A DNA stretch of 64,000 nt from the NCBI GenBank assembly GCA_003249955.1, contig QKHS01000015.1, forward strand, positions 1 through 64,000, in the 5' to 3' direction. The notes beneath the pieces are model-generated. The model saw only the letters and a program-made list of their open reading frames with translations. It was not told where the DNA came from and did not search any database. The translations under genes and the position numbers were made by a program. Positions within the stretch are counted from its first letter, which is position 1. Each line of letters starts with the position of its first letter. Positions 237 through 17,340 of this stretch are shown in pieces. Origin of the DNA: Bacteroidales bacterium (lineage in GTDB: Bacteria; Bacteroidota; Bacteroidia; Bacteroidales; ML635J-15).

Positions 237-1253
237 ATGAAAAACGAAAAAATATTACTTGGACACGGCAGCGGCGGGAAATTATCACACACACTGATTC
301 AGGAAGTTTTTGTAAAATATTTCAGTAATACAATTCTGGACAACCAAACAGATGCGGCAGTTCTGGATATTGACAGCAAATCAATTTCGTTAACTACAGA
401 TTCGTTTGTTGTTGACCCTGTTTTCTTTCCCGGCGGAAACATCGGTAAACTTGCAGTATGCGGGACAGTAAATGACATTGCCGTTTCAGGAGCAAAACCA
501 CTTTATTTAAGTTCTGCGTTTATCATCGAAGAAGGCTTCCCTGTTGAAGACTTAACCGAAATAGTTAAAGCTATGGCGGAAGAAGCCAAAAAAGCAGGAG
601 TTAAAATTGTTACCGGAGACACAAAAGTTGTTGACAAAGGGAAATGCGATAAAATCTTTATAAACACTACAGGCGTAGGTACTATTGACGAAAGCCGCAA
701 ACACATAGGTAGCGGAAGTAAAATAGAACCGGGAGATAAAATAATTATTAATGGAAACATCGGCGATCACGGAATGGCAATTATGAGTGCCAGAAACGAT
801 CTTAAAATCTCTGCTCCCATTGTTTCCGACTGTGCATGTTTGCATAATTTAATTGCCTCTGCATTAAATGTATCCGATTCTGTTAAATTTATCCGCGATG
901 CTACAAGGGGTGGTTTGGCAACAGTTGTATCAGAACTTGTAAGTACAAAAAAATTCGGAATCAATATTGACGAAGACAAAGTTCCTGTTCTGGATAGCGT
1001 AAGAGGAATGTGTGAGTTGCTTGGGTTCGATCCGTTTTATGTTGCAAATGAAGGAAAATTTGTAATGGTTGTAGGCAAAGACGATGCTGAGAAAGTCCTT
1101 GCAGAACTTAAAAAGAATGAATTCGGAAAAAATGCCGCTATCATAGGCGAAGTTGTTGCGGAACATCCGGGTAAAAGTATTGTAAAAACAGGCATAGGCG
1201 GAACACGTATTCTCGACATGTTATCGGGAGAGCAGTTGCCCCGCATTTGTTAA
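237..1253 (+). CDS. hypE: HypE, carbamoyl dehydratase for hydrogenase maturation
   Basis: HypE receives a carbamoyl group from HypF on its C-terminal cysteine and dehydrates it with ATP to a thiocyanate, the source of the CN ligands of the NiFe site. The 338-residue protein has the expected length. It shows the PurM-like ATP-binding start (LGHGSGGKLSHTLI), the DxTDAAVLD segment, DATRGGLATVVSEL, and the family's terminal PRIC with the acceptor cysteine as the last residue. It follows hypD and precedes hypA. It acts in the cytoplasm with HypC, D and F; HypC and HypF are not in this window. Confidence 0.95.
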   Translation: MKNEKILLGHGSGGKLSHTLIQEVFVKYFSNTILDNQTDAAVLDIDSKSISLTTDSFVVDPVFFPGGNIGKLAVCGTVNDIAVSGAKPLYLSSAFIIEEGFPVEDLTEIVKAMAEEAKKAGVKIVTGDTKVVDKGKCDKIFINTTGVGTIDESRKHIGSGSKIEPGDKIIINGNIGDHGMAIMSARNDLKISAPIVSDCACLHNLIASALNVSDSVKFIRDATRGGLATVVSELVSTKKFGINIDEDKVPVLDSVRGMCELLGFDPFYVANEGKFVMVVGKDDAEKVLAELKKNEFGKNAAIIGEVVAEHPGKSIVKTGIGGTRILDMLSGEQLPRIC

Positions 1254-1320
1254 AAGTTTAACCGATAAGGCTATTTTGATTAATCTTAATCTTTTTAGCT
1301 TTGTCTAATATTTATTTGTA

Positions 1321-1662
1321 ATGCACGAATTGTCAATAGCTATGAGTATTGTTGAGATTGCCGAAGAAAATATAAGGCAGTCTGAAATAAGTTCGGTAAG
1401 TGAGATAAGCATTGAAGTCGGCGGCTTATCCGGAGTAGTTGAAGAAGCTCTTGAATTTGCAATGGATGAAGCAGTAAAAAATACTGTTTTAAAAGATGCT
1501 AAAAGAACAATTATCAGAATTCCCGGAAAACTAAAATGCCTTGCTTGTTTTCACGAATTCGAAGTTGAAGACATCTTTACGCCCTGTCCGGTATGCGGCA
1601 GTTTTGAAAATGATGTGATTGCAGGTAAAGAACTGAGAGTAAAGTCAATGATTGGAGAATAG
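1321..1662 (+). CDS. hypA: HypA, nickel-insertion metallochaperone
   Basis: A 113-residue protein of normal HypA size that delivers Ni to the large subunit of [NiFe] hydrogenase together with HypB. It begins MHELSIAMSIV, and His2 is the conserved Ni ligand. A zinc site of two CxxC pairs is present: CLAC at about residues 71-74 and CPVC about 16 residues further on. It sits 67 bases after hypE and before hypB, a normal maturation-gene order. The HybF paralogue is an alternative name for the same function. Confidence 0.94.
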   Translation: MHELSIAMSIVEIAEENIRQSEISSVSEISIEVGGLSGVVEEALEFAMDEAVKNTVLKDAKRTIIRIPGKLKCLACFHEFEVEDIFTPCPVCGSFENDVIAGKELRVKSMIGE

Positions 1663-1789: not shown

Positions 1790-2728
1790 ATGTGTGGAAC
1801 ATGCGGATGCGGAGATGAAAACTCTGTAACAATAAGAAAACCGGGAGAAGAAAATAATTTGCATAATCATTCACATGTTCATGCCGACGGGACAATCCAT
1901 GAGCATGAACACGACCATAGCCACAGTCATGGCCACAGCGAAAGTCATGATCATATTCACGAACATAGTCATGAACACGACCACGGAGACGGAACAGTGC
2001 ATTCGCACAGCCATGACCACGAACATGGGCACACTCACGACCATTCGCATGATTATGCCCATGCCCATGCAATCGAAATAAAAATTGAACAGGATATTTT
2101 ACACAAAAATGACAAACTTGCTGAAAGAAACCGTGGTTATTTCGAAGCAAAGAATATTTTGTCGATAAATATGGTAAGTTCTCCAGGTTCAGGAAAAACC
2201 AGCCTGCTCGAAAGAACAATAAAAGAAATGAAAAACAACTTTGATTTCTTTATTATAGAAGGCGACCAGCAAACAATGAACGATGCCGAAAGAATTCAGG
2301 CAGCCGGAGCTCCGGCAATTCAGGTAAACACCGGACAAGGATGTCATCTTGACGCAGATATGGTAAACAGGGCTGTTAAAGCTTTAGAAGTAAAAGATAA
2401 CTCTGTATTATTTATAGAAAATGTAGGTAATCTGGTGTGTCCCGCCATGTTCGATCTGGGAGAATCAAAACGGGTTGTTGTGATCAGCGTAACCGAAGGC
2501 GAAGACAAACCGGTAAAATACCCTGCAATGTTCAGCACCTCTGATATTTGCATTATCAACAAAACAGATTTGCTGCCATACCTTAATTTTGATGTTGAAA
2601 AACTAAAAAATTATGCATTACGGGTAAATCACCATCTGAAATTTATCGAACTTTCTGTTAAAAGCGGAGAAGGAATGGAGATATGGTATGAATGGTTAAA
2701 AAACACTCTGGCTGCAAATCAGCTCTAA
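1790..2728 (+). CDS. hypB: HypB, His-rich GTPase for Ni insertion
   Basis: HypB is the GTPase that drives Ni transfer via HypA into hydrogenase. The 312-residue protein starts MCGTCGCG, the N-terminal high-affinity CxxCGC Ni site seen in E. coli-type HypB. A stretch at about residues 24-95 follows with roughly 29 histidines alternating with D, E and S, a nickel-storage type region. The G domain then has the P-loop SSPGSGKTSLL (about 131-141), the metal-site Cys-His in GQGCHLDADM, and NKTDLL as the base-recognition motif. It is 15 bases before a His-rich membrane protein, probably co-transcribed. The His tract also opens long antisense frames, which are artefacts. Confidence 0.95.
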   Translation: MCGTCGCGDENSVTIRKPGEENNLHNHSHVHADGTIHEHEHDHSHSHGHSESHDHIHEHSHEHDHGDGTVHSHSHDHEHGHTHDHSHDYAHAHAIEIKIEQDILHKNDKLAERNRGYFEAKNILSINMVSSPGSGKTSLLERTIKEMKNNFDFFIIEGDQQTMNDAERIQAAGAPAIQVNTGQGCHLDADMVNRAVKALEVKDNSVLFIENVGNLVCPAMFDLGESKRVVVISVTEGEDKPVKYPAMFSTSDICIINKTDLLPYLNFDVEKLKNYALRVNHHLKFIELSVKSGEGMEIWYEWLKNTLAANQL

Positions 2729-2743: not shown

Positions 2744-3442
2744 ATGGATGGAATAAATATACTTGTTGTTACTGCAATAACATTGGGTTTTGTACATACC
2801 GTTGTCGGTCCCGATCATTATCTTCCTTTTATCGTGATGTCAAAAGCCAGAAACTGGACAATGAGACGAACTCTCATGATAACTGTATTATGCGGGCTTG
2901 GACATATTTTAAGCTCTGTTGTTATCGGATTTATCGGGATAGCCGCAGGTATAGCCATTTCAAAAATCGAGATGTTTGAAGGACATCGTGGGAATGTTGC
3001 TGCATGGGCATTTATAATATTTGGTTTTGTTTACATGATTTGGGGGATTTACCGTGCTGTAAAAAACAAAAAACACACTCACATTCATTTCCATAAAGGA
3101 GGAAAAGTTCACGAGCATGAACATACTCACGAACACGATCACAGCCATGTTCACAAGCAAAATATAACACCATGGGTACTGTTTACTATTTTTCTTTTGG
3201 GGCCGTGTGAACCTCTGGTTCCGTTATTAATGTACCCTGCTGCAAACAACTCTATAGGCGGAACAGTACTTGTTTCATCTGCTTTTGGTATTACCACAAT
3301 CGGAACTATGACATTAATTGTGTTTTTAGCATCTTACGGAATTAAAATTATCAAAACAGACAAACTTGAAAAATATATGCATGCAATTGCAGGATTCACA
3401 ATTTTTGCAAGCGGAATGGCAATTCAGTTTTTAGGTCTGTAG
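2744..3442 (+). CDS. NicO/UreH-like membrane nickel transporter with His-rich loop
   Basis: A 232-residue integral membrane protein with about six hydrophobic helices. The first helix carries GFVHTVVGPDHYLPF, an H-x5-DH variant of the metal-binding motif of NicO/UreH/RcnA-type transporters. A cytosolic or periplasmic loop at about residues 108-142 is packed with His and Glu/Asp (for example HEHEHTHEHDHSHVH). The second half has LGPCEPLVPLLMYPA. Position directly behind hypB points to nickel supply for hydrogenase maturation. Direction of transport cannot be read from the sequence; import is inferred from context. Cobalt or zinc are alternatives. Confidence 0.8.
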   Translation: MDGINILVVTAITLGFVHTVVGPDHYLPFIVMSKARNWTMRRTLMITVLCGLGHILSSVVIGFIGIAAGIAISKIEMFEGHRGNVAAWAFIIFGFVYMIWGIYRAVKNKKHTHIHFHKGGKVHEHEHTHEHDHSHVHKQNITPWVLFTIFLLGPCEPLVPLLMYPAANNSIGGTVLVSSAFGITTIGTMTLIVFLASYGIKIIKTDKLEKYMHAIAGFTIFASGMAIQFLGL

Positions 3443-3460: not shown

Positions 3461-4126
3461 ATGAGTTTATCGGAAAAAACAGTAGAAAGACTTATCCGTT
3501 GCAGAAGAGAATTACTGAAGTATCAGTATATGGAAAAGCCTCATGTTTTTTCCAACGATCTGGCAAGAGTTTTGAATATTAAACCCGAACAACTCCGGCA
3601 GGACTTAATGGCAACCGGGATAGTTGCCGGCAGTAACAGAAGCGGTTACGATGTCAACAAACTCATAGCTGCAATCGAAGAAAAAACAAATCTTGACAAT
3701 ATCAGCAAAGTTGCATTTATAGGTGACGTTTCTCTGGTTGATGTTTACAAAAATTTTATTGATTCCGGTTTTATTGAATTCAACATTTCGGCAATTTTCA
3801 GTTTTAGTGCAGAAAAAGAATCTCACCACGGAATTCCGTGTTACACGCTGGAAAAAATGCCTGATATAATCAATGATAAAAATATTGAAATAGCTGTTCT
3901 TGCCGTTTGCCCAGAGTTAACACAAGAAATGGCTGACGCCTTGCTGTTATGCGGCATAAAGGGAATTGTAAATTTATCTTCGGAGACAATCACTCCTACA
4001 CCGGGAATTCAGATAGAGAATTATGATCTGCTGTCGGCAATTGAAAAAGTAAATTTCCTGATAAAAAAAGACGAAGAAATTGAATTAATAAAGAACAAAA
4101 TATCAAGAAATGAGAGAGGAAATTGA
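3461..4126 (+). CDS. rex: Rex-family redox-sensing transcriptional regulator, atypical nucleotide loop
   Basis: A 221-residue protein of Rex length. An N-terminal winged helix (about residues 5-65; CRRELLKYQ, then LNIKPEQLRQDLMATG) is followed by a Rossmann-like domain and a C-terminal swap helix (ENYDLLSAIEKVNFLI). Rex proteins sense NADH/NAD+ and bind TTGTGAA/TTGTTAA-N4 palindromes to control fermentation and hydrogenase genes. Such palindromes lie upstream of hydC, the TonB receptor, hox and 17687 in this window. The dinucleotide loop is odd: VAFIGDVSLV instead of a GxGxxG loop, so NADH sensing may be altered. The gene overlaps the next one by 17 bases. Confidence 0.8.
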   Translation: MSLSEKTVERLIRCRRELLKYQYMEKPHVFSNDLARVLNIKPEQLRQDLMATGIVAGSNRSGYDVNKLIAAIEEKTNLDNISKVAFIGDVSLVDVYKNFIDSGFIEFNISAIFSFSAEKESHHGIPCYTLEKMPDIINDKNIEIAVLAVCPELTQEMADALLLCGIKGIVNLSSETITPTPGIQIENYDLLSAIEKVNFLIKKDEEIELIKNKISRNERGN

Positions 4127-4427
4127 AAATAAACTAAAAGCAGCTTTAACCAGATTATGCCATCACTTTAATTTTGAAAATGATCCTGAAAATCTTGACA
4201 GCAAATCTGAAATTTTGAATAAGCTTGAAGTCGCGGACCCGGAAATCTTTAATTCACTTAAAGAATATTTTGTTTTATTCGATTCCTACATTTTTATAAA
4301 ATCAGACCGCACATTGATGTTTAAAGGCCGGGACGTGTGGAAAATGGAACTGGATATGTTCGGCACTTCACTTAATGAGGCAAACGAAGAATTGGTTAAG
4401 CTGATGGATGTGAAGGGGATTGCTTAA
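4110..4427 (+). CDS. Unknown 105-residue protein overlapping rex
   Basis: I do not recognise this protein. It starts with ATG inside the end of rex (17-base overlap, different frame), so it is probably co-translated with rex. It is acidic and mostly helical in appearance, has no signal peptide or membrane segment, and contains HH at residues 18-19 and a C-terminal LNEANEELVKLMDVKG helix. No metal or catalytic motif is clear. Its place between rex and the hydCBA promoter suggests a role in the same redox system, as a guess only. Confidence 0.7.
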   Translation: MREEIENKLKAALTRLCHHFNFENDPENLDSKSEILNKLEVADPEIFNSLKEYFVLFDSYIFIKSDRTLMFKGRDVWKMELDMFGTSLNEANEELVKLMDVKGIA

Positions 4428-4562: not shown

Positions 4563-4580
4563 TTGTTAACATTTTAACAA
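4563..4580 (+). promoter_or_regulatory. Rex-type operator upstream of hydC
   Basis: TTGTTAA-CATT-TTAACAA is a perfect palindrome matching the TTGTTAA-N4-TTAACAA form of Rex operators. Its end lies 44 bases before the -7 box, an activator-like upstream position. The same 44-base distance occurs at the TonB receptor promoter (8366-8383). A CRP/FNR-family site (TGTTA-N6-TAACA) is an alternative reading. Confidence 0.72.
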
Positions 4581-4623
4581 GCTGATTATCAGCATTTTCG
4601 CATTTTATTAAAACCGGATTATC

Positions 4624-4631
4624 TATTTTTG
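4624..4631 (+). promoter_or_regulatory. -7 promoter element of hydCBA
   Basis: TATTTTTG fits TAnnTTTG exactly, within the block TCTATTTTTGCC that is repeated at the TonB receptor promoter. A leader of about 155-160 bases would precede the hydC ATG at 4792. Confidence 0.62.
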
Positions 4632-4717
4632 CCTGAGCTTATTTATAAAATAAGTCAAGAATTGTAAACTGTCAAACTATATGTTATGATTATCAGCAAA
4701 TCATTTATATGCTCAGG
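4632..4717 (+). promoter_or_regulatory. Candidate structured 5' leader RNA before hydC
   Basis: The arms CCTGAGC (4632-4638) and GCTCAGG (4711-4717) are perfectly complementary. They enclose two further perfect hairpins: CTTATTT/AAATAAG (4638-4654) and ATGATT/AATCAT (4686-4704) with loop ATCAGCA. The result would be a three-way junction at the very 5' end of the mRNA. The function is unknown, and AT-rich hairpins can arise by chance. Confidence 0.35.
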
Positions 4718-4791
4718 TTTTACACTGTTTAATTACATTATAACAAACAATAAGTCCAAACATAATTTTAATAACTAAAAAACAGACTACT

Positions 4792-5256
4792 ATGACAGAA
4801 ACTCATGAATTGGTTAAGCAATTAGCCGACAAGTACGGCAGGGATCGGGCATCTTTGATGCCGGTTTTGCAGGCTGTGGTGGAAAAACAAAATTACCTGA
4901 CAGAAGAAGCCATGAACGAAATTGCAGATCAGTTCGGCATTTCTGCAGCTCAGGTATTCGGCACTGCTTCGTTTTACTCATTTCTTGACACAGAAGCACG
5001 GGGAAAATATGTAATCCGGGTTTGCAAGTCAATTATAGCAGAAATGAAAGGAAAGAAAGCTATTATAAAAGCTCTCGAAAATGTATTGAAAATATCTGTA
5101 GGGCAAACAACCCCGGACAAAAAGTTTACATTATTGGAAACAAACGATATCGGATGGAGCGATCAGGAGCCTTCGATGTTGATTAATGAAACTCCGTTTA
5201 CCAATCTTACACCGGAAAAAGTGATAAACATAATTAATGAATACAGTTCAAAATAA
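4792..5256 (+). CDS. hydC: HydC, NuoE-like subunit of [FeFe] hydrogenase with degenerate Fe-S site
   Basis: A 154-residue thioredoxin-like NuoE-family subunit, first gene of hydC-hydB-hydA. The helical N-terminus and the FGTASFYSFL segment fit the family. The family normally has four cysteines for a [2Fe-2S] cluster, in Cx4C and CLGxC contexts. Here only Cys78 remains; the other ligand positions read Ala83, Asp119 and Ser123 (DIGWSDQEP). The cluster is therefore probably absent and the subunit may be structural. The gene ends just before the HydB start at 5276, implying an operon. It would work in the cytoplasm in an NAD-linked hydrogenase. Confidence 0.85.
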   Translation: MTETHELVKQLADKYGRDRASLMPVLQAVVEKQNYLTEEAMNEIADQFGISAAQVFGTASFYSFLDTEARGKYVIRVCKSIIAEMKGKKAIIKALENVLKISVGQTTPDKKFTLLETNDIGWSDQEPSMLINETPFTNLTPEKVINIINEYSSK

Positions 5257-5275
5257 TCATAAAACAAACACATCT

Positions 5276-6451
5276 ATGAACTCAAATAATTTAAAGAAAA
5301 CCGATGTTATTTTCGGAATCTGGCCATGTATGGAGGACAATAAATATCCGATACTTGAAGCAGTTATTAACAGAAATCCTGATGACATTATTAAAGACAT
5401 TATAAATTCTGGCTTAAAAGGCCGTGGCGGAGCAGGTTTCCCAACAGGGTTAAAATGGAAATTTGCCGCATCTCAGACTGAATCCGAAAAATATATAATA
5501 TGCAATGCCGACGAAGGAGAACCCGGAACATTTAAAGACAGAGAAATCTTATTAAAAGTACCGGAAAAAATATTTGCAGGTATGGCAATCTGTAGTCACT
5601 GCATTAAAGCAAAAAAAGGTTTTGTTTACCTGCGTGGTGAATATAAATTCATGTTACCTCAATTAAATAAAGTACTGGAGAGTTTCCACGAATCCATAAG
5701 AAAAACCGGATACGACTTCGAGATTAAAATCCTACTCGGTAGCGGAGCCTATGTTTGTGGCGAAGAAACTTCTCTGATGGAATCGATGGAAGGTAAAAGA
5801 GGTGAGCCAAGAAACAAACCGCCGTTCCCTGTTGTTGAAGGTTTTAATAATAAACCTACTGTAATTAACAATGTAGAAACATTTGTTAATGTTGCAATGA
5901 TTCAAAAGTTGGGAGTTGCAGAATTTGTAAAACTGGGTACCGATGATTCTCGCGGGTCAAAAGTATTTTCGGTATCGGGAGACACTCCTAAACCAGGTGT
6001 TTTTGAACTCGAACTTGGAATGAAGTTATCTGATTTTGTAGCTGAGTACGGTGACGGAGATACAAAAGCAGTACAGGTTGGCGGAGCTTCAGGGTTTTGT
6101 GTCCCACGAAAAAGATTCGAAGATACAATAATAGGCTTTGAAGGTGTTCCTACCGGAGGCTCAATGATGCTTTTCAACAGTACCAGATCAATGTATAACG
6201 TACTTTCAAACTATCTTGACTTTTTTGCGGAAGAATCCTGTGGCCAGTGTACTCCATGCAGAGTTGGTTGTCAGCAATTAATTCAGGGAATAAAAGCTGT
6301 GAAAAAAGGAAGTAAAAACGAAGACTATCTTGATTCATTGCTAAAACTTACCGAATCAATGAAAATTACTGCGAAGTGTGGATTAGGGCAATCTGTTGCC
6401 AACTCTTTCTACTCTATCGTAACTAATTTTAAAGAAGAAATGATTTATTAA
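5276..6451 (+). CDS. hydB: HydB, NuoF-like NADH/FMN subunit of [FeFe] hydrogenase, short form
   Basis: The flavin subunit of the trimeric hydrogenase, exchanging electrons between NAD(H) and HydA. The open frame extends back to 5237 over the end of hydC; the ATG at 5276 is preferred, giving 391 residues. It shows the FMN/NADH sites GLKGRGGAGFPTGLKW, CNADEGEPGTFKDRE and GAYVCGEETSLMESMEG, and the [4Fe-4S] ligands ESCGQCTPCRVG and AKCGLGQ. It lacks both the N-terminal thioredoxin-like domain and the C-terminal 2[4Fe-4S] ferredoxin domain of bifurcating HydB proteins. It is therefore closer to a bare NuoF and may serve a non-bifurcating NADH-linked enzyme (inference). Confidence 0.9.
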   Translation: MNSNNLKKTDVIFGIWPCMEDNKYPILEAVINRNPDDIIKDIINSGLKGRGGAGFPTGLKWKFAASQTESEKYIICNADEGEPGTFKDREILLKVPEKIFAGMAICSHCIKAKKGFVYLRGEYKFMLPQLNKVLESFHESIRKTGYDFEIKILLGSGAYVCGEETSLMESMEGKRGEPRNKPPFPVVEGFNNKPTVINNVETFVNVAMIQKLGVAEFVKLGTDDSRGSKVFSVSGDTPKPGVFELELGMKLSDFVAEYGDGDTKAVQVGGASGFCVPRKRFEDTIIGFEGVPTGGSMMLFNSTRSMYNVLSNYLDFFAEESCGQCTPCRVGCQQLIQGIKAVKKGSKNEDYLDSLLKLTESMKITAKCGLGQSVANSFYSIVTNFKEEMIY

Positions 6452-6467
6452 AAACAAACGAAACAAC

Positions 6468-8258
6468 ATGGAAACAAAAATAAATTTAGAAATTGACGGT
6501 ATAAATATTTCCGTTGAAAAAGGAACAACGATTCTGGAAGCAGCACGCAGGCTAAACATAAAAATACCAACTCTCTGTCATCATCCCGATCTTTGCGTTG
6601 CCGGGAATTGCAGGGTTTGTGTAGTAGAACAGGAAGGTGCCAGAACATTACAGGCCTCCTGCGCCACCCCGGTCTCCGAAGGAATGGTTATTTTCACAAA
6701 CACTCTAAAAGTAAGAACAGCAAGAAAACACATTATCGAATTATTGCTGTCCGAACACAATTCAGAATGTACAAAATGTTACAAAAATGGTAATTGTGAA
6801 CTTCAATCATTAGCTGCTGATTACAAAATCACAAATGATTCTTTGATAGATCTGGTTCCGTTTAAAAATTACACCATTGATAATTTTTCGCCATCAATAA
6901 TAAAAGATGACAGTAAATGTATCAGATGCCAGCGTTGTGTAAGGACATGCGAACAATTACAGTCTGTAAGTGCGCTTTCTGTTGCATACAAAGGCGAACA
7001 CATGAAAATATCTACTTTCCTCGAAAAACCGATGTTTGAAGTCGTCTGTACCAATTGCGGACAATGTGTTAACCGCTGTCCTGTAGGTGCTCTTGTAGAA
7101 AGAAACTATATTGACGAAGTGTGGAATGCAATTTACGATAAAAATAAACATGTAGTAGTTCAGACAGCTCCTGCAGTACGTATTGCTCTCGGCGAAGATC
7201 TGGGAATAGAAAACGGAGAAATTGTAACCGGCAAAATGGTTGCTGCCCTGAGAAAACTGGGATTTGATTCTGTTTTGGACACCGATTTCACCGCAGATCT
7301 TACAATCATGGAAGAAGGTACAGAACTTTTAACCATGCTAAAAAAAGCTATTGTTGACAAAGATTCTTCAGTAGCACTGCCGATGGCTACTTCCTGTTCT
7401 CCGGGTTGGATAAAATTTATTGAACATCAGTATCCGCAACTACTCCCGAACCTGTCAACATGTAAATCTCCGCAGCAAATGTTCGGAGCTTTGGCCAAAA
7501 CATATTATGCCGAAAAACGCAATTTAAATCCTGCTGACATAATTTCAGTTTCCATAATGCCGTGTACTGCTAAAAAATACGAAGCAGACAGACCGGAAAT
7601 GCGTTCAAGCGGCTACAAAGATGTTGATTATGTTCTGACTACTCGCGAACTTGCTGTAATGATTAAACAGGCCGGACTTGATTTTAAATCTCTACCGGAA
7701 GAAAAATGTGACAGTATAATGGGACAATCAACCGGTGCTGCTGTTATCTTCGGTGCATCCGGCGGAGTAATGGAAGCCGCATTACGTACTGCTTACGAAA
7801 TAATTACAGGTAAAGAAATTCCGTTTGAAAATCTCAACATTACACCTGTAAGAGGTATGCAAGGTGTTAAAGAAGCTTCACTAAAAATTATGGACACTCT
7901 GCCGGAATGGAATTTCTTAGAGGGTGTTACTTTAAACACTGCCGTAGCACACGGACTGGCAAATGCAAAAACAGTTATGGATTCTGTTGCTGAAGGAAAA
8001 GCCAATTACCACTTTATCGAAATCATGGCTTGTCCTGACGGCTGCCTAGGTGGTGGCGGACAACCTATCCCGACATGCCGTGAAATAAGAGTCAAACGAA
8101 ACGAAGCAATCTATCGCGAAGATGCAGGAATGGCTTTACGAAAATCTCACGAAAATCCTGAAGTAATTCAAATATATCAGGAATTCCTCGAAAAACCTCT
8201 GGGACATAAATCACATGAGCTTTTGCATACAAAATATACTGACAGAAAATCTAAATAA
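6468..8258 (+). CDS. hydA: HydA, catalytic [FeFe] hydrogenase subunit
   Basis: A 596-residue enzyme that reduces protons or oxidises H2. An N-terminal [2Fe-2S] domain (Cys37, 48, 51, 65) is followed by a His-ligated [4Fe-4S] motif (HNSECTKCYKNGNC), two [4Fe-4S] motifs (CIRCQRCVRTC and CTNCGQCVNRCPVG) and the H-cluster domain. The H-cluster motifs are L1 TSCSPGW (Cys310, Ser311), L2 MPCTAKKYE (Cys366) and L3 MACPDGCLGGGGQP (Cys522, Cys526). L1 has Ser in place of the second Cys of the common TSCCP form. The domain order is that of the trimeric NAD-linked group A enzymes. The maturases HydE, F and G are not in this window. Confidence 0.95.
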   Translation: METKINLEIDGINISVEKGTTILEAARRLNIKIPTLCHHPDLCVAGNCRVCVVEQEGARTLQASCATPVSEGMVIFTNTLKVRTARKHIIELLLSEHNSECTKCYKNGNCELQSLAADYKITNDSLIDLVPFKNYTIDNFSPSIIKDDSKCIRCQRCVRTCEQLQSVSALSVAYKGEHMKISTFLEKPMFEVVCTNCGQCVNRCPVGALVERNYIDEVWNAIYDKNKHVVVQTAPAVRIALGEDLGIENGEIVTGKMVAALRKLGFDSVLDTDFTADLTIMEEGTELLTMLKKAIVDKDSSVALPMATSCSPGWIKFIEHQYPQLLPNLSTCKSPQQMFGALAKTYYAEKRNLNPADIISVSIMPCTAKKYEADRPEMRSSGYKDVDYVLTTRELAVMIKQAGLDFKSLPEEKCDSIMGQSTGAAVIFGASGGVMEAALRTAYEIITGKEIPFENLNITPVRGMQGVKEASLKIMDTLPEWNFLEGVTLNTAVAHGLANAKTVMDSVAEGKANYHFIEIMACPDGCLGGGGQPIPTCREIRVKRNEAIYREDAGMALRKSHENPEVIQIYQEFLEKPLGHKSHELLHTKYTDRKSK

Positions 8259-8282
8259 TGTTTGTGTAATTCCTTGTTTTTG

Positions 8283-8311
8283 AAAAGACTGCCCGAAAGG
8301 CGGTCTTTTTG
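8283..8311 (+). terminator. Rho-independent terminator after hydA
   Basis: A stem of AAAGACTGCC pairing with GGCGGTCTTT (one G-T pair) with a short CGAAA loop is followed by a T run. It lies 24 bases after the hydA stop and ends the operon. Confidence 0.8.
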
Positions 8312-8365
8312 TTTAGAACCTGCTTAACCGTTATGTAATTGCCTGACATAAAGCCACATTACCCG

Positions 8366-8383
8366 TCGTTAAACTTTTAACAA
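8366..8383 (+). promoter_or_regulatory. Rex-type operator upstream of the TonB receptor
   Basis: TCGTTAA-ACTT-TTAACAA differs from the perfect palindrome at one base. The right half continues as TTAACAAGCTGCTTATCAGC, which matches the hydC promoter (4574-4593) except for one base. It ends 44 bases before the -7 box at 8427, as at hydC. Confidence 0.68.
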
Positions 8384-8426
8384 GCTGCTTATCAGCCATT
8401 TAGCCTGTAATAAAGAATCATTTTTC

Positions 8427-8434
8427 TATTTTTG
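8427..8434 (+). promoter_or_regulatory. -7 promoter element of the TonB receptor gene
   Basis: TATTTTTG in TCTATTTTTGCC is identical to the hydC -7 block, 32 bases before the ATG at 8467. A weak -33 candidate (CCTG) lies 19 bases upstream. Confidence 0.62.
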
Positions 8435-8466
8435 CCGCAAATAATAACAAACTAAAAAACTTATTA

Positions 8467-10335
8467 ATGAAAAAGCATACTGTATTTTTGATTTGTGAGA
8501 TTATAATGAGTTTTTCATCTTTTGCCCAGAGCATTACAGACGATACTATTCAATTAAATGAAGTAGTAATCAGCGGAACAAAAACAGAAATTACCAGGAA
8601 TAATGTTCCGCTTACAATTTCTGTAATAAGTAAAACTGAAATTGAGACCAGTAACGAATCTGCAATACTTCCTGTCATCAGCGAGCAGGTTCCGGGTTTA
8701 TTCGTAACCGAAAGAGGAATGACAGGTTTCGGGGTATCAACCGGTGCGGCAGGCCAGATAAGCATCAGGGGCGTTGGCGGAAGTCCAAACACTCAGGTAC
8801 TTATGTTGCTTGACGGACATCCGCAATATATGGGAATTATGGGTCATCCCCTGCCCGATTCTTATGTCGCTTCAGATGTTGAAAGAGTTGAAATTATCCG
8901 CGGACCGGCATCTATACTTTACGGTTCCGGCGCGATGGGTGGCGTTATAAATATAATCACAAAAAAACAAAAAACTGACGGTTATTCGCTAAATGCCAGG
9001 GCATCTTATGGCTCATACAACACACAGAAATACATGGCTAGCGGCGGCTACCGGCATAAAAAATTCAGTGCATTTGCTTCATACAACCATGATCAGACCG
9101 ATGGACACCGGGTAAATTCTGACTTTAAAATTGATAATGGTTATATAAAAGCAGGATATGATATAACAGATAAAATAACTGCATCTGCAGACTTCAACAT
9201 AGCAAAATTCTACACTTCCGATCCGGGGCCTTCTTACGTCACAGATTCATCTTATATAAATCAGATTCACTGGATTGACATAATGCGTGGCAAAACATCT
9301 TTATCTGTTGAAAATAATTTTAAGAAATTTAACGGGGCTGTAAAAATATTTCACAATTTCGGAGAACATGTTATTTATGACGGATTCCACTCCAAAGACA
9401 TTAATTCCGGAGTAATGATTTATCAGACCGGAAGTTTATTCAAAGGAAATCTTACAACTATTGGTTTTGATTATAACACATTCGGAGGAATAGCCGAAAA
9501 CACAAAAGCGATGAACGGCGAAGGAATGGTATTTGGCGACACTACACTTTATGACATGGCCGGATATGCACTTATACAGCATAATTTCAAAGATAAAATA
9601 ATTGTTAATGCCGGAATAAGATCAGAATACCACAGTGTTTACGGGAACGAATGGATTCCTCAGGCCGGTATTTGTTACAACATGACAGAAAAATCAACAT
9701 TGAAAGCTGTGGTTTCCAAAGGATTCCGCAGTCCGACAATCCGTGAATTATATCTCTGGGCTCCGGCTAACGAAAATCTTTTGCCGGAAAAACTCATGAA
9801 CTATGAATTGAGTTATTTGCAGAGAATCAATGACAAAATCAATTTTGAATTAACAGTTTTCCATAACGAAGGAAGTAACATGATTAAAACAATTATGGAC
9901 GGCGGAATTCCAAAAAATATGAATACCGGAACTTTCAGCAATTACGGGGCTGAATTTCTGACTAATATGAGAGTAAATAAAAATTTATCTTTCAACCTCA
10001 ACTACAGTTATCTATACATGGGAAATCCGATTATTGCATCACCGGAACATCAGGCATTTTTCAGTGCAAGGTACAAAGTGAAAAAATTCACATTCAGTAC
10101 AAATCTTCAGGTAATTAACGGATTATATACATCTGTTGCACAAGATGACGTCAGAAAAGTAAACTATCTGGTTCTGAATGCCAAAGCAGCTTATAACATC
10201 AATAACTTTATAAGCATTTACATCTCCGGCAATAATCTGCTAAATTCAGAATATGAGATTAACTACGGTTATCCAATGCCGGGAATAAACGTTTTCGGAG
10301 GAGTAAATATACAGTTCAGGAAGAATAAAAGTTAA
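8467..10335 (+). CDS. TonB-dependent outer-membrane receptor, probably Rex-box controlled
   Basis: A 622-residue receptor with an N-terminal signal peptide ending near SSFAQ, a TonB-box-like stretch (TIQLNEVVISG), a plug domain (RGVGGSPNTQVLMLLDGHP, then VERVEIIRGPASILYGSGAMGGVINIITKK) and a C-terminal beta-barrel. It is of the short siderophore/metal/cofactor type, without the SusC extension and without a SusD partner. The plug loop DGHPQYMGIMGHPLPDSY is rich in His and Met, which would suit a metal or metal-chelate. Because it shares the hydCBA promoter module, a role in supplying iron, nickel or a cofactor for hydrogenases is likely. The substrate cannot be read from the sequence. Confidence 0.88.
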   Translation: MKKHTVFLICEIIMSFSSFAQSITDDTIQLNEVVISGTKTEITRNNVPLTISVISKTEIETSNESAILPVISEQVPGLFVTERGMTGFGVSTGAAGQISIRGVGGSPNTQVLMLLDGHPQYMGIMGHPLPDSYVASDVERVEIIRGPASILYGSGAMGGVINIITKKQKTDGYSLNARASYGSYNTQKYMASGGYRHKKFSAFASYNHDQTDGHRVNSDFKIDNGYIKAGYDITDKITASADFNIAKFYTSDPGPSYVTDSSYINQIHWIDIMRGKTSLSVENNFKKFNGAVKIFHNFGEHVIYDGFHSKDINSGVMIYQTGSLFKGNLTTIGFDYNTFGGIAENTKAMNGEGMVFGDTTLYDMAGYALIQHNFKDKIIVNAGIRSEYHSVYGNEWIPQAGICYNMTEKSTLKAVVSKGFRSPTIRELYLWAPANENLLPEKLMNYELSYLQRINDKINFELTVFHNEGSNMIKTIMDGGIPKNMNTGTFSNYGAEFLTNMRVNKNLSFNLNYSYLYMGNPIIASPEHQAFFSARYKVKKFTFSTNLQVINGLYTSVAQDDVRKVNYLVLNAKAAYNINNFISIYISGNNLLNSEYEINYGYPMPGINVFGGVNIQFRKNKS

Positions 10336-10638: not shown

Positions 10639-12096
10639 ATGAAAAAAAACATTATTCTGACAATTCTGATGCTGACATTATCTTTAGCGATGATGGCTCA
10701 TTCCGGCAAAGCAAGGTTTCACGTTATAATTGATACGGATGGCGGGCCTGACGACCTCAGGGCAATTTCTTTGATCTTATCCTGTCCTGAGTTTGAAGTT
10801 ATTGCAGTTACAACTTCTGACGGACTGTTGCGGCCGGAAGAAAGCTATGTAAAAGTAAAATCTCTGCTCAAAGATTTCGGACATGAAGGAATTCCTGTAG
10901 CTTACGGAAAAACCGCAAACAAAAACGAATCTCAGTGTCACAATACCTGCATAGCTGTTAAGTGGGGAAATGAGGATAAAATTGATGTCCCCTCCGCTCC
11001 TGCTGCATTTGAATTGCTTAAGTACGAAATCAATAACGAAGATGAACCTGTTTTACTGATTTGTATGGGACCTTTGACAAATATCAGCGAAATAGTTGCA
11101 GATGAAAGTCTAAGTAGCCAAATCAGCAAAATAGTCTGGTATTGCAATGATGCTAAAGCCAAAAGCGGAATGAACTATGAAAAAGACGAAAAAGCCGCTG
11201 AAATATGTTTAAAATCCGGAATAGAAAAATTGATTATCAGTTCAGAAAATGCTCCCGGACTTGTAGTTGATGAAAGCTTTATGAGCAGCATTTCAAATAT
11301 TAAAAACATCTATGCCGGTAAAATTGTGACATCACATGACTGTGCCGAAGTAAAAGAAAAAATAAGCAACAAATTTTATAAATTATGGGACGATTTATTG
11401 CCGGTATTTTTAATTCATCCCGAATTTTTCGAATTAGTAAAATCTGAAAACAATATTACTTTTATTCAGCCTTTGCCTTTGGTTAATTCTGAAGAACAAA
11501 TCAAAAATGCATATTTTGAAATCATTAACAGTAAATATTCTAAAGAAAACAAAGTTTTCAAAAGCTTTCCGCTTTCCTCAGAATTGTATGCTGATGATAT
11601 CAGTGCCGATGTTGATGAAATTATTGCCCGCTATGGTATTTCTGAATTCAGGGCAGGAGTTTTAACCAATGAATTACATGGACATCTTGGTATTTATGCA
11701 ATTATTGGCGTTAAAATGGGAATAAGAGTCAGGCAATATTTTAATATCGGGGTTGATGAAATACACATTACATCTTTTGCCGGTTCAAATCCACCGGTAA
11801 GTTGCATGAATGACGGGTTGCAGGTTGGCACCGGTGCTACTGTCGGGCATGGTTTAATAAATATCTCGGACGAAACTGTAAAAAGGCCCGAAGCAATATT
11901 CGAATTCAAAAATAAGAAAGTCAGATTAAGACTAAAGGATGAGTACTGGGATTTAATAAAAGCAGATGTTCAGAAAACTATTAAAGACAATGGGAATCTC
12001 ACTCCTGAATATTGGTCAAGCCTTAGATTACTTGCAATAAAATACTGGAAAGATCTTGACAGAATGGAGATATTTGAGGTTACAAAAATTAGCTGA
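10639..12096 (+). CDS. Exported fusion: nucleoside-hydrolase-like domain plus FmdE-like domain
   Basis: A 485-residue protein with a signal peptide (about residues 1-20). The first two thirds resemble inosine/uridine-preferring nucleoside hydrolases: IIDTDGGPDDLRAI corresponds to the Ca-binding DTDxGxDDAxAI motif, and CMGPLTNIS resembles a family motif. The last 150 residues resemble FmdE, a zinc-binding domain first named from formylmethanofuran dehydrogenase operons: HGHLG (His347, His349), then SCMNDGLQVGTGATVG (Cys389). The usual HGHxCPG cysteine is replaced by Leu-Gly. I know of no standard function for this pairing. It is convergent with the hox operon and is followed by a shared terminator. 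Confidence 0.75.
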   Translation: MKKNIILTILMLTLSLAMMAHSGKARFHVIIDTDGGPDDLRAISLILSCPEFEVIAVTTSDGLLRPEESYVKVKSLLKDFGHEGIPVAYGKTANKNESQCHNTCIAVKWGNEDKIDVPSAPAAFELLKYEINNEDEPVLLICMGPLTNISEIVADESLSSQISKIVWYCNDAKAKSGMNYEKDEKAAEICLKSGIEKLIISSENAPGLVVDESFMSSISNIKNIYAGKIVTSHDCAEVKEKISNKFYKLWDDLLPVFLIHPEFFELVKSENNITFIQPLPLVNSEEQIKNAYFEIINSKYSKENKVFKSFPLSSELYADDISADVDEIIARYGISEFRAGVLTNELHGHLGIYAIIGVKMGIRVRQYFNIGVDEIHITSFAGSNPPVSCMNDGLQVGTGATVGHGLINISDETVKRPEAIFEFKNKKVRLRLKDEYWDLIKADVQKTIKDNGNLTPEYWSSLRLLAIKYWKDLDRMEIFEVTKIS

Positions 12097-12197: not shown

Positions 12198-12674
12198 TTA
12201 ATCCATAAAATTTCGTCCATCTAGAATTTTGCTTTTAGCATATTCTACTGCTTTGTTTAAATTCTCTTTTGCTTTTTCTGTCAACCCTTCTGCAAAATCC
12301 CATTCATAACCTTTTATATGAATCAGATATACTTCAGGAAACTTATTGTAAAGCTGATTACAAAGGTTCACGACAAAAGCAGGAGAAACCGCATGCATCG
12401 AAAATTCAACTTTTGCTTCGGAGGGCTCTACCCTGTCGATATAAAAATCATCAATCTCTTCTATTGTTGCATCGACGAAGACGACAATATCCTTATCGGA
12501 TATTGCGTCTGCATCTTCAATATTTAACTGATAATTGCTATCTATAGTAATTTCCGGAATACCTTCCTTAGTAATCCACTCCTCCATTATGCTGACAAAC
12601 TCGTTTCCCAGCCCGTCATCCTGTCTGCCCGGATTACCATACCCATAAAGCATCGTTTTCTTAATCTCTGCCAT
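12198..12674 (-). CDS. Hydrogenase maturation protease
   Basis: A 158-residue endopeptidase of the HyaD/HoxW/HycI family, which removes the C-terminal tail of the NiFe large subunit after Ni insertion. It starts with GYGNPGRQDDGLGNEFV, containing the conserved Asp (in QDDGLG) that reads Ni occupancy, and has DAT and HAVSPA segments in the expected places. Its ATG overlaps the stop of the large-subunit gene by one base (TAATG), so translation is coupled. It is the last gene of the hox operon. Confidence 0.9.
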   Translation of the reverse strand: MAEIKKTMLYGYGNPGRQDDGLGNEFVSIMEEWITKEGIPEITIDSNYQLNIEDADAISDKDIVVFVDATIEEIDDFYIDRVEPSEAKVEFSMHAVSPAFVVNLCNQLYNKFPEVYLIHIKGYEWDFAEGLTEKAKENLNKAVEYAKSKILDGRNFMD

Positions 12675-14125
12675 TACGACCTTTTTCTGTCAATTAAGTT
12701 ATCGTTTGCATCAAGTAAAGTAACTTCCAGAGGCATTTTTCCCAATGCATGTGTTGCACAGCTCAGACATGGGTCATAAGCACGGATTGCAACCTCAACA
12801 GCATTCATCATACCTTCGGTGATGGTATCTTTACCATTCATGTAACTCTTGGCAACGTTATTTACCGAACGATTCATAGGCTCATTATTGTTTGTTGTTG
12901 AAACAATAAGGTTAGCTTTTGTAATCTGGTCGTTTTCGTTAATTTCATAATGGTGGAATAAAGTTCCGCGCGGAGCTTCAATTAAACCTACACCTCTGTT
13001 GGTTTTTGTTCCTTTGGTTACTAACTCACCGCTTAATAAATCAGGATCGTTAAGTAAAACCTTAATCATTTCAGCAGCATGGAGACATTCGATCAAACGG
13101 GCCCAGTGATTATGCATACACATGTTGTTTGGTTTTCCGTTTGTATAAGCTTTGTAAATTTCGAATTCTTTCTGTGCCAGCGGTGTAGGAATAAAGTCAG
13201 CAGTATTTAAACGTGCCAGCGGACCTACTCTGTACCAGCCTTTTTCTTTACCCTGATCAATTATGTAAGGGAATTTCATATAACTCCAGCTACGTACTTC
13301 TTCGCTGATGTATTTGTCATATTCCTGATAATCAACATCGTTAAGAACTTTCTTACCGTTTGCATCAACAGCTCTGAGAACACCATGGTATAAATCCAAA
13401 GCACCGTCTTTACGTACAAGACTCAAATAATTTGAATCGTATTTTGAGAAATTGTCAATAAAATCAGTGTTTTTCTTTTGATAATCTTTCAGGAAGTCAA
13501 GAGCAGCCTGTGCCCATTCGATCATCTTATCAATATTCAGCGGATCTGCACCTAAAAGGAATGAATCTCTTTCGGCAATGCTGAGGTGTTTGTTAATACC
13601 GCCGGGGATTGCGCCTGTACCGTGAATTTTTTTACCGGCAGTTGCAGCAATAATTTCCTGACCGAATTTACGCATCATAACGCCCATAACTGCCAGATCT
13701 TTGTGTTTCATTGCAACACCGATAACGTTTCTGATAGCAGGATCGCCGTCAACACCGAATAATAAATCCGGAGAAACGAGGTGGAAGAAATGTAAAACGT
13801 GAGACTGGAAGAACTGACCATAATGCATCAATCTTCTCATTTTTTCACCTGTAGGGGTTAAACCGTTACCGGTTCCTGCACCAACAATTACGTCCAATGC
13901 TTTAGCTGCAGCTAAATGGTGACTTACAGGGCAAATTCCGCAAAGACGCTGAACCAATACCGGAGCTTCCCAGTAAGGTCTTCCTTGTACGAAACGTTCG
14001 AATCCGCGAAACTCAACAATATGTAATCTGGATTGTTCTACATTTCCTGCGTCGTCAAACTTAATTGTAACTTTTCCGTGACCTTCAACTCTGGTTACGG
14101 GTTCTATTGTTATTTTTTTTGACAT
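12674..14125 (-). CDS. hoxH: [NiFe] hydrogenase large subunit, HoxH-like
   Basis: The catalytic subunit, 483 residues from the ATG at 14125. The open frame continues to a TTG at 14152 inside the previous gene, which is less likely. The N-terminal motif RLCGICPVSH and the C-terminal DPCLSCATH supply the four Cys ligands of the NiFe site. Twenty-four residues follow the final His and would be cut off by the protease encoded next. The motifs and the accompanying NuoEF/NuoG-like genes place it in the cytoplasmic NAD(P)-linked group 3 enzymes (3d-like). Group 3b or 3c are less likely because the diaphorase module is present. Confidence 0.94.
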   Translation of the reverse strand: MSKKITIEPVTRVEGHGKVTIKFDDAGNVEQSRLHIVEFRGFERFVQGRPYWEAPVLVQRLCGICPVSHHLAAAKALDVIVGAGTGNGLTPTGEKMRRLMHYGQFFQSHVLHFFHLVSPDLLFGVDGDPAIRNVIGVAMKHKDLAVMGVMMRKFGQEIIAATAGKKIHGTGAIPGGINKHLSIAERDSFLLGADPLNIDKMIEWAQAALDFLKDYQKKNTDFIDNFSKYDSNYLSLVRKDGALDLYHGVLRAVDANGKKVLNDVDYQEYDKYISEEVRSWSYMKFPYIIDQGKEKGWYRVGPLARLNTADFIPTPLAQKEFEIYKAYTNGKPNNMCMHNHWARLIECLHAAEMIKVLLNDPDLLSGELVTKGTKTNRGVGLIEAPRGTLFHHYEINENDQITKANLIVSTTNNNEPMNRSVNNVAKSYMNGKDTITEGMMNAVEVAIRAYDPCLSCATHALGKMPLEVTLLDANDNLIDRKRS

Positions 14126-14144
14126 CGTATTTACTTTTTTAAAA

Positions 14145-14693
14145 TTAATCAAATTTAACTACTTCATATGGAAGATCCATTTCGTTGCCTGTAAGAAGAG
14201 CAACTAATGCATTCCAGATTAAATCGGCTCTTGGCGGGCAGCCAGGGAGGAAATAATCAATTTTAACTATCTCGTGACAAGGATAAACTTTATCCAGAAT
14301 CATCGGCAACTCGTCATCGTTAGGTAAGATACCTTCTTTGTTAAGAGTTACGGTTGGCCCTTCGAGATAAGCTTCTCTGATACATTCTTCAACAGGAATT
14401 CCGTTTCTTAATGCCGGTAAACCACCCATAATAGCACATTCGCCCAAAGAGATAAGAATTTTACAGTTCTTACGGAATTCTTTAAGTACGTGAACATTTT
14501 CGCTATTACAGCAACCACCTTCAATAATACCTATATCACATTGTTTTGTGAAGGTCTTAATATCATCAATCGGTGATTTATTAAATTCGACTAAGTCAAA
14601 TAAGTCAAGTATTCTTTCATCTATATCGAGAATCGACATGTGACATCCGAAGCATCCCGCTAATGATGTCGTAGCAACTATTGGTTTACTCAT
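14145..14693 (-). CDS. hoxY: [NiFe] hydrogenase small subunit, HoxY-like
   Basis: A 182-residue small subunit carrying the cluster near the NiFe site. It has no Tat signal, as expected for a cytoplasmic enzyme. Cysteines lie in SLAGCFGCHMSILD (Cys14, Cys17), EGGCCNSENV, LGECAIMGG and FLPGCPPRAD, the pattern for the proximal [4Fe-4S] cluster. It is shorter than periplasmic small subunits because distal and medial clusters are absent. It lies two bases after hoxU and just before hoxH in one operon. Confidence 0.92.
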   Translation of the reverse strand: MSKPIVATTSLAGCFGCHMSILDIDERILDLFDLVEFNKSPIDDIKTFTKQCDIGIIEGGCCNSENVHVLKEFRKNCKILISLGECAIMGGLPALRNGIPVEECIREAYLEGPTVTLNKEGILPNDDELPMILDKVYPCHEIVKIDYFLPGCPPRADLIWNALVALLTGNEMDLPYEVVKFD

Positions 14694-14695: not shown

Positions 14696-15412
14696 CTAAT
14701 TACCTCCCTGATTAAATTTATTTTCAATTTCATGTCCGATAGGTTGCTTATCGAATTTTCTGGTTCCGATAGCTTCATCAAAACCTTTTTCTTTTTTAAT
14801 AATTACACCAACCGGGCAAGTATTCATTGCTTTCTGAGCCATTTCGTCAGAAATATTTGCACAAACTTCGTGATCCATTACTATTTCGGCATGAACACCT
14901 CTGTGTTTGATTGCAAATAAACTCTTTCCGTTTTCATCTTTCAACCCTCTTACGCATCTTAAACAAAGAATACATCTGTTGGTATCAAGTAAAAGTTTCG
15001 GATTGGTTGCATCAATTGGTCTCTGCGGGAATGAATACGGGAATCTAGGAACCATCATCATAAAACGATATCCTAATGCCTGTAATTCACAGTTTCCGCT
15101 CTTTTCGCAAGACGGGCAAAAGTGATTACCTTCAACAAATATTGCTTCGATAATAGCTTTTCTTATTTCATTAATCCCTGCGGTATTGTTTTCTATTTCC
15201 ATTCCTTCTGTTGCAGGAGTTGTACAAGCTGTCATCGCTCTTCCGTTGACTTTAACTGTACACAATCTGCAGGATGCTTTAGGTTTTATTCCATCAAAAG
15301 CACATAGAGTCGGAATATAAATCCCATTATTAACGGCAGCCTGAAGAATGGTTTGACCCTTTGTGGCTTCTATTTCTTTGCCGTCGATTACTATTTTAAT
15401 TATTTCGCTCAT
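14696..15412 (-). CDS. hoxU: HoxU-like Fe-S subunit (NuoG N-terminal type)
   Basis: A 238-residue electron-transfer subunit linking the diaphorase to the NiFe module. It has an N-terminal [2Fe-2S] fold (TLCAFDGIKPKASCRLC, with a fourth Cys in MTACTTPA), a His/Cys [4Fe-4S] motif (HFCPSCEKSGNCELQ) and a C-terminal CILCLRCVRG plus NTCPVG. The length and domain order match HoxU of bidirectional hydrogenases. It is 33 bases downstream of hoxEF. Confidence 0.9.
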   Translation of the reverse strand: MSEIIKIVIDGKEIEATKGQTILQAAVNNGIYIPTLCAFDGIKPKASCRLCTVKVNGRAMTACTTPATEGMEIENNTAGINEIRKAIIEAIFVEGNHFCPSCEKSGNCELQALGYRFMMMVPRFPYSFPQRPIDATNPKLLLDTNRCILCLRCVRGLKDENGKSLFAIKHRGVHAEIVMDHEVCANISDEMAQKAMNTCPVGVIIKKEKGFDEAIGTRKFDKQPIGHEIENKFNQGGN

Positions 15413-17299: not shown

Positions 17300-17317
17300 T
17301 TGTTAAAAAATTAACGA
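17300..17317 (-). promoter_or_regulatory. Rex-type operator in the hox promoter
   Basis: TTGTTAA-AAAA-TTAACGA (plus-strand reading) has one mismatch to the perfect palindrome. It lies downstream of the predicted hox -7 element, near +10 to +30, the position expected for a blocking repressor. Confidence 0.65.
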
Positions 17318-17332: not shown

Positions 17333-17340
17333 CAAATATA
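17333..17340 (-). promoter_or_regulatory. hox promoter, -7 element
   Basis: The minus strand reads TATATTTG, an exact TAnnTTTG. TTTG for the -33 element lies 18 bases further upstream (plus 17359-17362). The leader before the ATG at 17248 would be about 80 bases. Confidence 0.6.

Follow-up and report, generated by a model that had tools for sequence, protein, structure and literature searches.

The question raised by this locus is whether two similar promoters, one before the [FeFe] hydrogenase genes hydCBA and the other before a TonB-dependent receptor gene, answer to the same regulator and, if so, to which. Both lie in a 64-kb window (the whole stretch of DNA analysed), which is the start of contig C17 of the 4.70-Mb genome of a Bacteroidales bacterium (G000). 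The first 18 kb of the window form a hydrogenase island. Its plus strand carries hypE, hypA, hypB, a gene for a DsbD_2 membrane protein, rex2, orf105, hydCBA, the TonB receptor gene and a gene for an IU_nuc_hydro-FmdE protein, and its minus strand carries a hox-type [NiFe] hydrogenase with its protease. Rex is a sensor of NADH/NAD+ that acts mainly as a repressor. We propose, with a probability of about 0.5, that an island-specific Rex derivative blind to nicotinamide adenine dinucleotide (NAD) controls the island as a small local regulon. The candidate, Rex2, is encoded by a gene that the original prediction did not mention and that ends 436 bp 5' of the hydC palindrome.

Both promoters had been described as carrying a palindrome of the type TTGTTAA-N4-TTAACAA, and they do so, with no mismatch before hydC (TTGTTAACATTTTAACAA, 4563-4580) and one before the receptor gene (TCGTTAAACTTTTAACAA, 8366-8383). 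The identical -7 block, TCTATTTTTGCC, is likewise present at 4622-4633 and 8425-8436 and nowhere else in the window. Within it, TATTTTTG fits the Bacteroidetes -7 consensus TAnnTTTG, as given in an excerpt of PMC7366714. The spacing is equal in the two promoters, although the predicted distance of 44 bases holds only from the last base of the palindrome to the TA of TAnnTTTG, with 43 bases between them. From the palindrome through the -7 block the promoters agree at 53 of 71 bases (segments of 15/18, 12/15, 14/26 and 12/12), and just upstream of the palindromes at 24 of 63.

At up to three mismatches the palindrome is unremarkable, with 20 occurrences in the window against 15.1 expected and 17 of 100 shuffles reaching 20. 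At up to one mismatch the genome holds 16 sites against 9 in the backward control, and 4 of these 16 fall in this 64 kb. The longer core TTAACAAGCTGNTTATCAGC is exact in the genome only at the hydC and TonB promoters, and the control has none even at up to three mismatches. A chance AT-rich match was rejected on the comparison of the genome counts, of the core and of the consensus described below with their controls.

A second inverted repeat, GCTG[AC]TTATCAGC (4581-4593 and 8384-8396), is common to these two promoters only, in this genome, and is not in the TonB promoter of the comparison genome G028, which belongs to the same family and is about 95% complete. It could serve as a second binding site, or it could be left over from promoter copying. 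The notion that GCTGATTATCAGC marks a genome-wide regulon was weak and was rejected: 11 of the 15 places examined as loci lie inside long open reading frames (ORFs), and the 25 genome places at up to one mismatch, against none in the backward control, were set against an unfair control, since the backward sequence contains CG steps. A comparison of the hydC upstream region with plasmids gave no match.

A consensus, GTTAA-NN-TTTTAACAA, was derived from five sites, those at hydC, TonB and hox in this genome and those at TonB and hox in G028. Four exact matches occur in the genome, where a first-order model trained on the window predicts 0.46, and all four are in the island (1247-1262, 4565-4580, 8368-8383 and 17300-17315), preceding hypA, hydC, the TonB receptor gene and hoxEF. 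The operators before hypA and hoxEF (1247-1264 and 17300-17317) were absent from the original prediction. The hypA site was not used for the consensus and was already known at two mismatches to the TTGTTAA-N4-TTAACAA pattern; it stands at the same place in G028. That genome also has four exact matches, three of them, hypA included, in its island. Operator and -7 box are equally far apart in the two genomes at the TonB (43 bp), hypA (31 bp) and hox (-41 bp) promoters; at hox the box comes first, followed by 15 bp and then the operator. The bases between operator and box have drifted, with 16/43, 13/31 and 1/15 identical, respectively. The proportion of synonymous differences (pS) between the two genomes is 0.65 to 0.78 for hypE, hypA, hypB, dsbD, rex, orf105 and FmdE, which is at or near saturation. 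A shared functional operator appears highly probable.

The expected conservation of the promoter pair in relatives was found for its TonB half, of which palindrome and spacing are kept in G028. The pair itself is seen in one genome only because the G028 island has no hydCBA, and the receptor gene there directly follows orf105. Other families have hydC sequences nearer to that of our genome (61 to 64%) than its own genus has (49 to 51%), which suits an acquired hydCBA.

To place the operators we assumed that transcription starts 10 bp downstream of the first base of the -7 box. The hypA, TonB and hydC operators are then centred about 50 or 62 bp before the start and the hox operator at about +22. 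The upstream position noted earlier is thus real, and for TonB is kept in G028; activation, which was drawn from that position, is a tentative reading and in our estimate falls somewhat short of an even chance. With operators upstream at three promoters and 3' of the start at hox, one and the same bound protein may act in opposite directions.

The class of protein that binds was approached through the hydC promoters of 42 genomes with a close HydC (at least 138 bits), from which G046 was dropped for having only 81 bp upstream, leaving 41. The motif TTGTKA-N6-TMACAA was sought within 400 bp upstream of hydC, and a PF06971 match was taken as Rex. At up to one mismatch, the palindrome precedes hydC in 24 of the 29 Rex-encoding genomes (our own included) and in none of the 12 Rex-less genomes (Fisher's P of 7.8e-7); at up to two mismatches the counts are 25/29 and 3/12. 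Controls on the 29 gave 2 (backward, up to one mismatch), 7 (backward, up to two) and a mean of 6.0 with a maximum of 12 (shuffled, up to two). With each family counted once the result is 15/19 versus 0/11 (P of 2.5e-5); this count is without G018 and G046, and the family of the window enters it as one positive although one of its Rex-bearing members, G029, lacks the site. A weakness is that the motif was fixed after many of these promoters had been viewed; its choice did not presuppose a dependence on rex. The presence of the palindrome before hydC therefore tracks the rex gene, in agreement with its description as Rex type, and a binder of the Rex class is probable on this distribution.

The other 23 hydC promoters with palindromes were also compared. 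Nine have a nearby TAnnTTTG box, and most operator centres in these fall at -28/-29 and/or +14 to +16, which are repressor positions. The exceptions are G079 (also +4), G069 (also +32) and G050, with an upstream pair at -59 and -42 relative to one of its two boxes. The remaining 14 have no box near the palindromes, and many of them, including seven members of the genus, have two palindromes 17 bp apart. The position of our hydC operator, at about -62, is unusual among the hydC promoters compared. Elsewhere in the genome, tandem Rex-type palindromes on contig C10 (L123, 4352-4386), the second an exact 18-mer, stand directly 5' of a TATCTTTG box and are followed on the same strand by a series of ORFs that reaches a second [FeFe] hydrogenase. 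The exact 18-mer is centred at about -28, a repressor position, and the pair is probably a target of canonical Rex. Rnf (C7) has a palindrome too, a candidate that stayed weak.

Rex2 matches PF06971 and PF02629 above cut-off and has a winged-helix N-terminus and a Rossmann-type C-terminal domain. Nine Rex models of NCBIfam match it, all below their cut-offs (best E-value, 3e-33). Its AlphaFold model keeps the Rex fold (mean predicted local distance difference test score, 82; predicted template modelling score, 0.65), and the first 39 PDB hits obtained with Foldseek are Rex entries or the entry for the AT-rich DNA-binding protein of T. thermophilus. The GxGxxG signature reads GDVSLV in Rex2 and its G028 orthologue, and all 20 other Rex rows of the alignment have it unbroken. 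The NAD contacts of T. maritima Rex listed in an excerpt of PMC8836258 include Asn92, Tyr100, Asp115, Lys120 and Asp191. In Rex2, Asp191 is kept, Lys120 is absent, and Tyr100, Asp115 and Asn92 are replaced by Phe, Ser and Ser. The position of Asp115 holds Asn in the G028 orthologue and D or E in the 20 other rows; that of Tyr100 is also changed in two other rows (L128 and L131), and that of Asn92 varies in GxGxxG-intact rows too. The DNA contacts Ser33, Lys43, Gln46, Arg48, Gly58 and Tyr64 are kept.

This combination makes redox control by NADH doubtful, because Rex2 lacks GxGxxG and several NAD contacts, and we file it, for its lost NAD signature, as a Rex-derived regulator rather than as a redox-sensing Rex. 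Of the proposed common redox regulon, the Rex-type operator shared by the two promoters stands, whereas its control by NADH does not follow from a regulator without the dinucleotide-binding signature; we lean slightly towards an island that is not NADH-controlled. Rex2 probably works through a Rex-type operator, and that Rex2 itself is the protein bound in the island is a reading we favour by a little.

Rex2 and its G028 orthologue share a long tree branch (2.65), and the ratio of nonsynonymous to synonymous differences (pN/pS) of rex2, 0.23, indicates purifying selection. Only G028 has a close Rex2 relative among the 31 genomes searched in the family, and a class-wide search of 395 genomes gave no Rex closer than 33% besides that of the window. 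A single clade of hydrogenase-linked Rex proteins is not claimed, because inner support is weak and branches are long, and the tree sets Rex2 and its orthologue apart from five others. GxGxxG-intact Rex genes adjoin hox or hyp in other families (L126, L127, L128, L130 and L131), and linkage of Rex genes to hydrogenase genes may be frequent in the order. The residues H122, H123 and C150 occur only in Rex2 and the G028 orthologue among the 22 Rex rows and would be candidate ligands if Rex2 senses a metal. The small protein encoded by orf105 (4110-4427) has no family match in Pfam or NCBIfam; it evolves faster than Rex2 (pN/pS, 0.53) and could be its partner.

The receptor had been taken for an uptake system for a metal or a cofactor, and its orthologues, which often adjoin nikR, point to a metal. 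These orthologues are well set off in the search of relatives, where E-values jump from E-109 to E-35. The nikR gene is directly upstream of the receptor gene in 8 of 28 loci (L135, L136, L137, L138, L140, L152, L156 and L161) and within the receptor cluster in 4 of 20 fetched regions (L103, L105, L107 and L110; L105 and L137 look like one contig). The receptor thus likely supplies nickel. The NikR consensus, GTGTTAC-N14-GTAACAC in the available part of PMC545781, stands exact before the receptor gene in L064, and clear boxes occur in few loci. Among 48 receptor upstream stretches, some of them the same genome twice, NikR boxes were found in 2 at up to two mismatches (backward control, 0) and in 6 at up to three (control, 2). 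These 48 do not include L143 and L154, which are contig starts, the distant hits L075 to L081, or L053 and L134, both from G028, which is represented by L082. Since the boxes are weak, the nickel reading rests on gene linkage.

No NikR was detected in our genome or in G028, and 10 of 26 genomes searched have one. The best fit to GTGTTAC-N13/14-GTAACAC before the receptor gene has five mismatches in our genome and six in G028, and these two genomes are the only ones with a Rex-type palindrome (at up to two mismatches) among the 48 stretches. In this lineage a Rex-type site seems to have taken over control of the receptor from NikR. A model of nickel/cobalt efflux matched the DsbD_2-type protein weakly and below cut-off. 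In the assembly of G028 a stretch of N breaks the receptor gene (L053 and L082; C117).

In the mechanism that we propose, four transcription units (hypA onward, including rex2; hydCBA; the TonB receptor gene; hox) would each be governed through the operator GTTAA-NN-TTTTAACAA that they carry, with Rex2 as the protein bound at all four. Bound Rex2 would activate from the upstream sites at hypA, TonB and hydC and block at hox (about +22). The signal would be other than NADH, and gene content suggests nickel status: cells poor in nickel would switch on nickel uptake, maturation and the [FeFe] enzyme, which contains no nickel, and switch off the nickel enzyme Hox. Nickel as the signal is nevertheless an unlikely specific choice. 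The same low standing belongs to the fuller proposal that Rex2 is a redox regulator turned sensor of nickel or another metal, which would replace NikR, activate the receptor, hypAB and [FeFe] genes and repress hox. The hydC promoter would be a copy of the TonB promoter, dating from the arrival of hydCBA between orf105 and the receptor gene and kept by selection. A Rex activator released at high NADH would switch hydC off at high NADH, which would be odd for an enzyme that disposes of NADH electrons.

Ordinary NADH-sensing control could use the same operators, with the canonical second Rex (encoded on C36), or Rex2 still binding NAD(H), repressing all targets and the receptor belonging to a normal redox regulon. 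The tracking of rex by the hydC palindromes fits this explanation, as does the other exact 18-mer of the genome, on C10, with its repressor position before the run to a second [FeFe] hydrogenase; moreover, published work on Caldicellulosiruptor bescii describes control of [FeFe] and [NiFe] hydrogenases by Rex (PMC6391272, in the part available). However, the Rex search detected in G028 only the island Rex and no canonical one, and the island operators are nonetheless kept there. The missing NAD signature of Rex2 speaks against it too, as do the upstream positions at hypA, TonB and hydC, which are unlike the -28 and +14 to +16 of most relatives with a box. We regard ordinary Rex control as unlikely. 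A CRP/FNR-type activator would suit the position, since activators at class I promoters sit at about -62, and helix-turn-helix matches of this family number 12 in G000 and 5 in G028. Such matches are found in 41 of the 42 genomes searched, including all 12 Rex-less ones (11 of them above cut-off), none of which has the palindrome before hydC at up to one mismatch, so that CRP/FNR proteins, taken as one family, do not explain its distribution. The hox site, 3' of the start, also argues against an activator of this kind, and HcpR was rejected as the binder because the published HcpR2 consensus GTAACnnnnGTTAC (excerpt of PMC1274295) is unlike the island operator. The CRP/FNR alternative of the original prediction is therefore disfavoured for hydC and improbable overall. 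Recent common ancestry alone, a promoter duplication without regulatory meaning, would account for the 53 of 71 identical bases with their upstream edge and for orf105 and the receptor gene being neighbours in G028 without hydCBA, but it leaves the palindrome and spacing kept in G028 and the like sites before hypA and hox; as the whole explanation it is very improbable. Duplication and function are compatible, and we think that both are true.

Several observations weigh against control by an NAD-blind Rex2. The island was found in two genomes only, and the hydC/TonB pair is known from a single one. One of the four exact consensus matches of G028 is outside its island, and at up to one mismatch the backward control is matched at least as often as the consensus itself (23 versus 21 in G000, 12 versus 10 in G028), so the case for the operators is built on the exact matches and where they lie. 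The hox genes are less diverged (pS of 0.62 for hoxEF and 0.52 for hoxH), which weakens the footprint there, though just 1 of 15 bases of the spacer is alike. In Rex2 the DNA contacts Glu34, Lys49, Ser52, Arg60 and Gly61 are changed, and the protein may retain NAD binding despite the missing GxGxxG. The canonical Rex could bind the island sites, and in G028, given its completeness, a second Rex may have been missed.

The system resembles the Rex regulons of Firmicutes and Thermotogales in the type of palindrome, in the hydrogenase, hyp and rex targets and in the Rex fold. Excerpts of the literature give predicted sites such as TTGTTAATAAATTAACTA before hfsABCD of T. saccharolyticum (PMC5886521) and Rex targets that include hydrogenase, hyp and rex genes (PMC6391272). 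In contrast to those regulons, the island Rex2 lacks GxGxxG and several NAD contacts, three of four island operators are upstream of the promoter, and a TonB receptor is among the targets. With the NikR regulon it shares nickel uptake adjoining the regulator and a related hydrogenase switch: in Desulfovibrio desulfuricans, according to the available part of PMC545781, a nickel-independent hydrogenase is a predicted target of repression by NikR when nickel is in excess. It differs from that regulon in having no NikR in either genome and in the protein family and operator. The resemblance to HcpR and other CRP/FNR activators lies in the palindrome, whose centre is some 62 bp 5' of the assumed start, and the difference in the HcpR2 consensus and in a distribution that tracks rex, not CRP/FNR. 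As a group A6 HydABC (HydA scores above the NF040763 cut-off, and the HydB and HydC domains are present) and a hox-type NAD-linked hydrogenase, the island enzymes are ordinary, and it is their shared regulation and the regulator that are unusual. In the accessible text of the open-licence literature, no paper was found on a Bacteroidetes Rex hydrogenase regulon or on a Rex paralogue without NAD binding, and among the papers listed none dealt with a regulator of this kind in Bacteroidales, judged by titles and the openings of abstracts.

If the proposal is true, a global redox regulator has become a local switch between two types of hydrogenase and the nickel supply for one of them. A Rex-derived protein without the NAD signature would be matched with operators at three activator-like positions and one repressor position. 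The rule for Bacteroidales operators, rex together with TTGTKA-N6-TMACAA before hydC, is applicable to many genomes.

Table 1. Genes and predicted regulatory elements of the hydrogenase island (positions in the window)
Feature	Position	Strand	Basis
hypE, hydrogenase maturation	237..1253	+	TIGR02124, 469.7 bits, above cut-off
Predicted operator of hypA, overlapping the end of hypE; consensus on minus strand	1247..1264	.	Exact GTTAA-NN-TTTTAACAA; same place and 31-bp spacing in G028
Predicted -7 box of hypA promoter, TAGCTTTG	1296..1303	+	TAnnTTTG scan
hypA, nickel insertion	1321..1662	+	Pfam HypA
hypB, nickel insertion	1790..2728	+	TIGR00073, above cut-off
DsbD_2-type membrane protein, possibly nickel permease	2744..3442	+	Pfam DsbD_2; homologue adjoins TonB receptor in L107 and L109
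rex2, Rex-derived regulator without GxGxxG	3461..4126	+	Domain, alignment and structure comparisons; purifying selection
orf105, small protein overlapping rex2	4110..4427	+	35% identical orthologue at same place in G028
Predicted operator of hydC promoter	4563..4580	+	Palindrome; exact consensus
Second inverted repeat, GCTGATTATCAGC	4581..4593	+	Absent from G028 TonB promoter
Predicted -7 box of hydC, TATTTTTG	4624..4631	+	43 bp 3' of operator
hydC	4792..5256	+	Pfam 2Fe-2S_thioredx
hydB	5237..6451	+	Pfam Complex1_51K
hydA, [FeFe] hydrogenase group A6	6468..8258	+	NF040763, 882 bits (cut-off 765)
Predicted operator of TonB-receptor promoter	8366..8383	+	Palindrome; exact consensus; kept in G028
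Second inverted repeat, GCTGCTTATCAGC	8384..8396	+	Shared with the hydC promoter
Predicted -7 box of receptor gene, TATTTTTG	8427..8434	+	43 bp 3' of operator, likewise in G028
TonB-dependent receptor, probably for nickel	8467..10335	+	Pfam; nikR adjoining orthologues
IU_nuc_hydro-FmdE protein	10639..12096	+	Pfam; adjoins receptor orthologues
Hydrogenase maturation protease	12198..12674	-	TIGR00072, above cut-off
[NiFe] hydrogenase large subunit, hoxH-like	12674..14152	-	Pfam NiFeSe_Hases
[NiFe] hydrogenase small subunit, hoxY-like	14145..14693	-	Pfam Oxidored_q6
hoxU-like subunit	14696..15412	-	Pfam; best NCBIfam match HoxU, below cut-off
hoxE/F-like fused diaphorase subunit	15446..17248	-	Pfam
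Predicted operator of hox promoter, 3' of its -7 box	17300..17317	-	Exact consensus; equal spacing in G028
Predicted -7 box of hox, TATATTTG	17333..17340	-	Ends 15 bp before operator in both genomes

Other features of the window were also observed. Direct repeats of 57 and 30 nucleotides lie at 10405-10629, between the receptor and FmdE genes. Another palindrome, with one mismatch, is at 17589-17606 and precedes an ORF of 302 amino acids (17642-18550) that has no Pfam or NCBIfam match. Two very large ORFs, of 3043 and 2547 amino acids (25971-35102 and 35437-43080), contain fn3 and DUF5018 domains and a C-terminal Por_Secre_tail, and the first of them additionally has a Cleaved_Adhesin domain.

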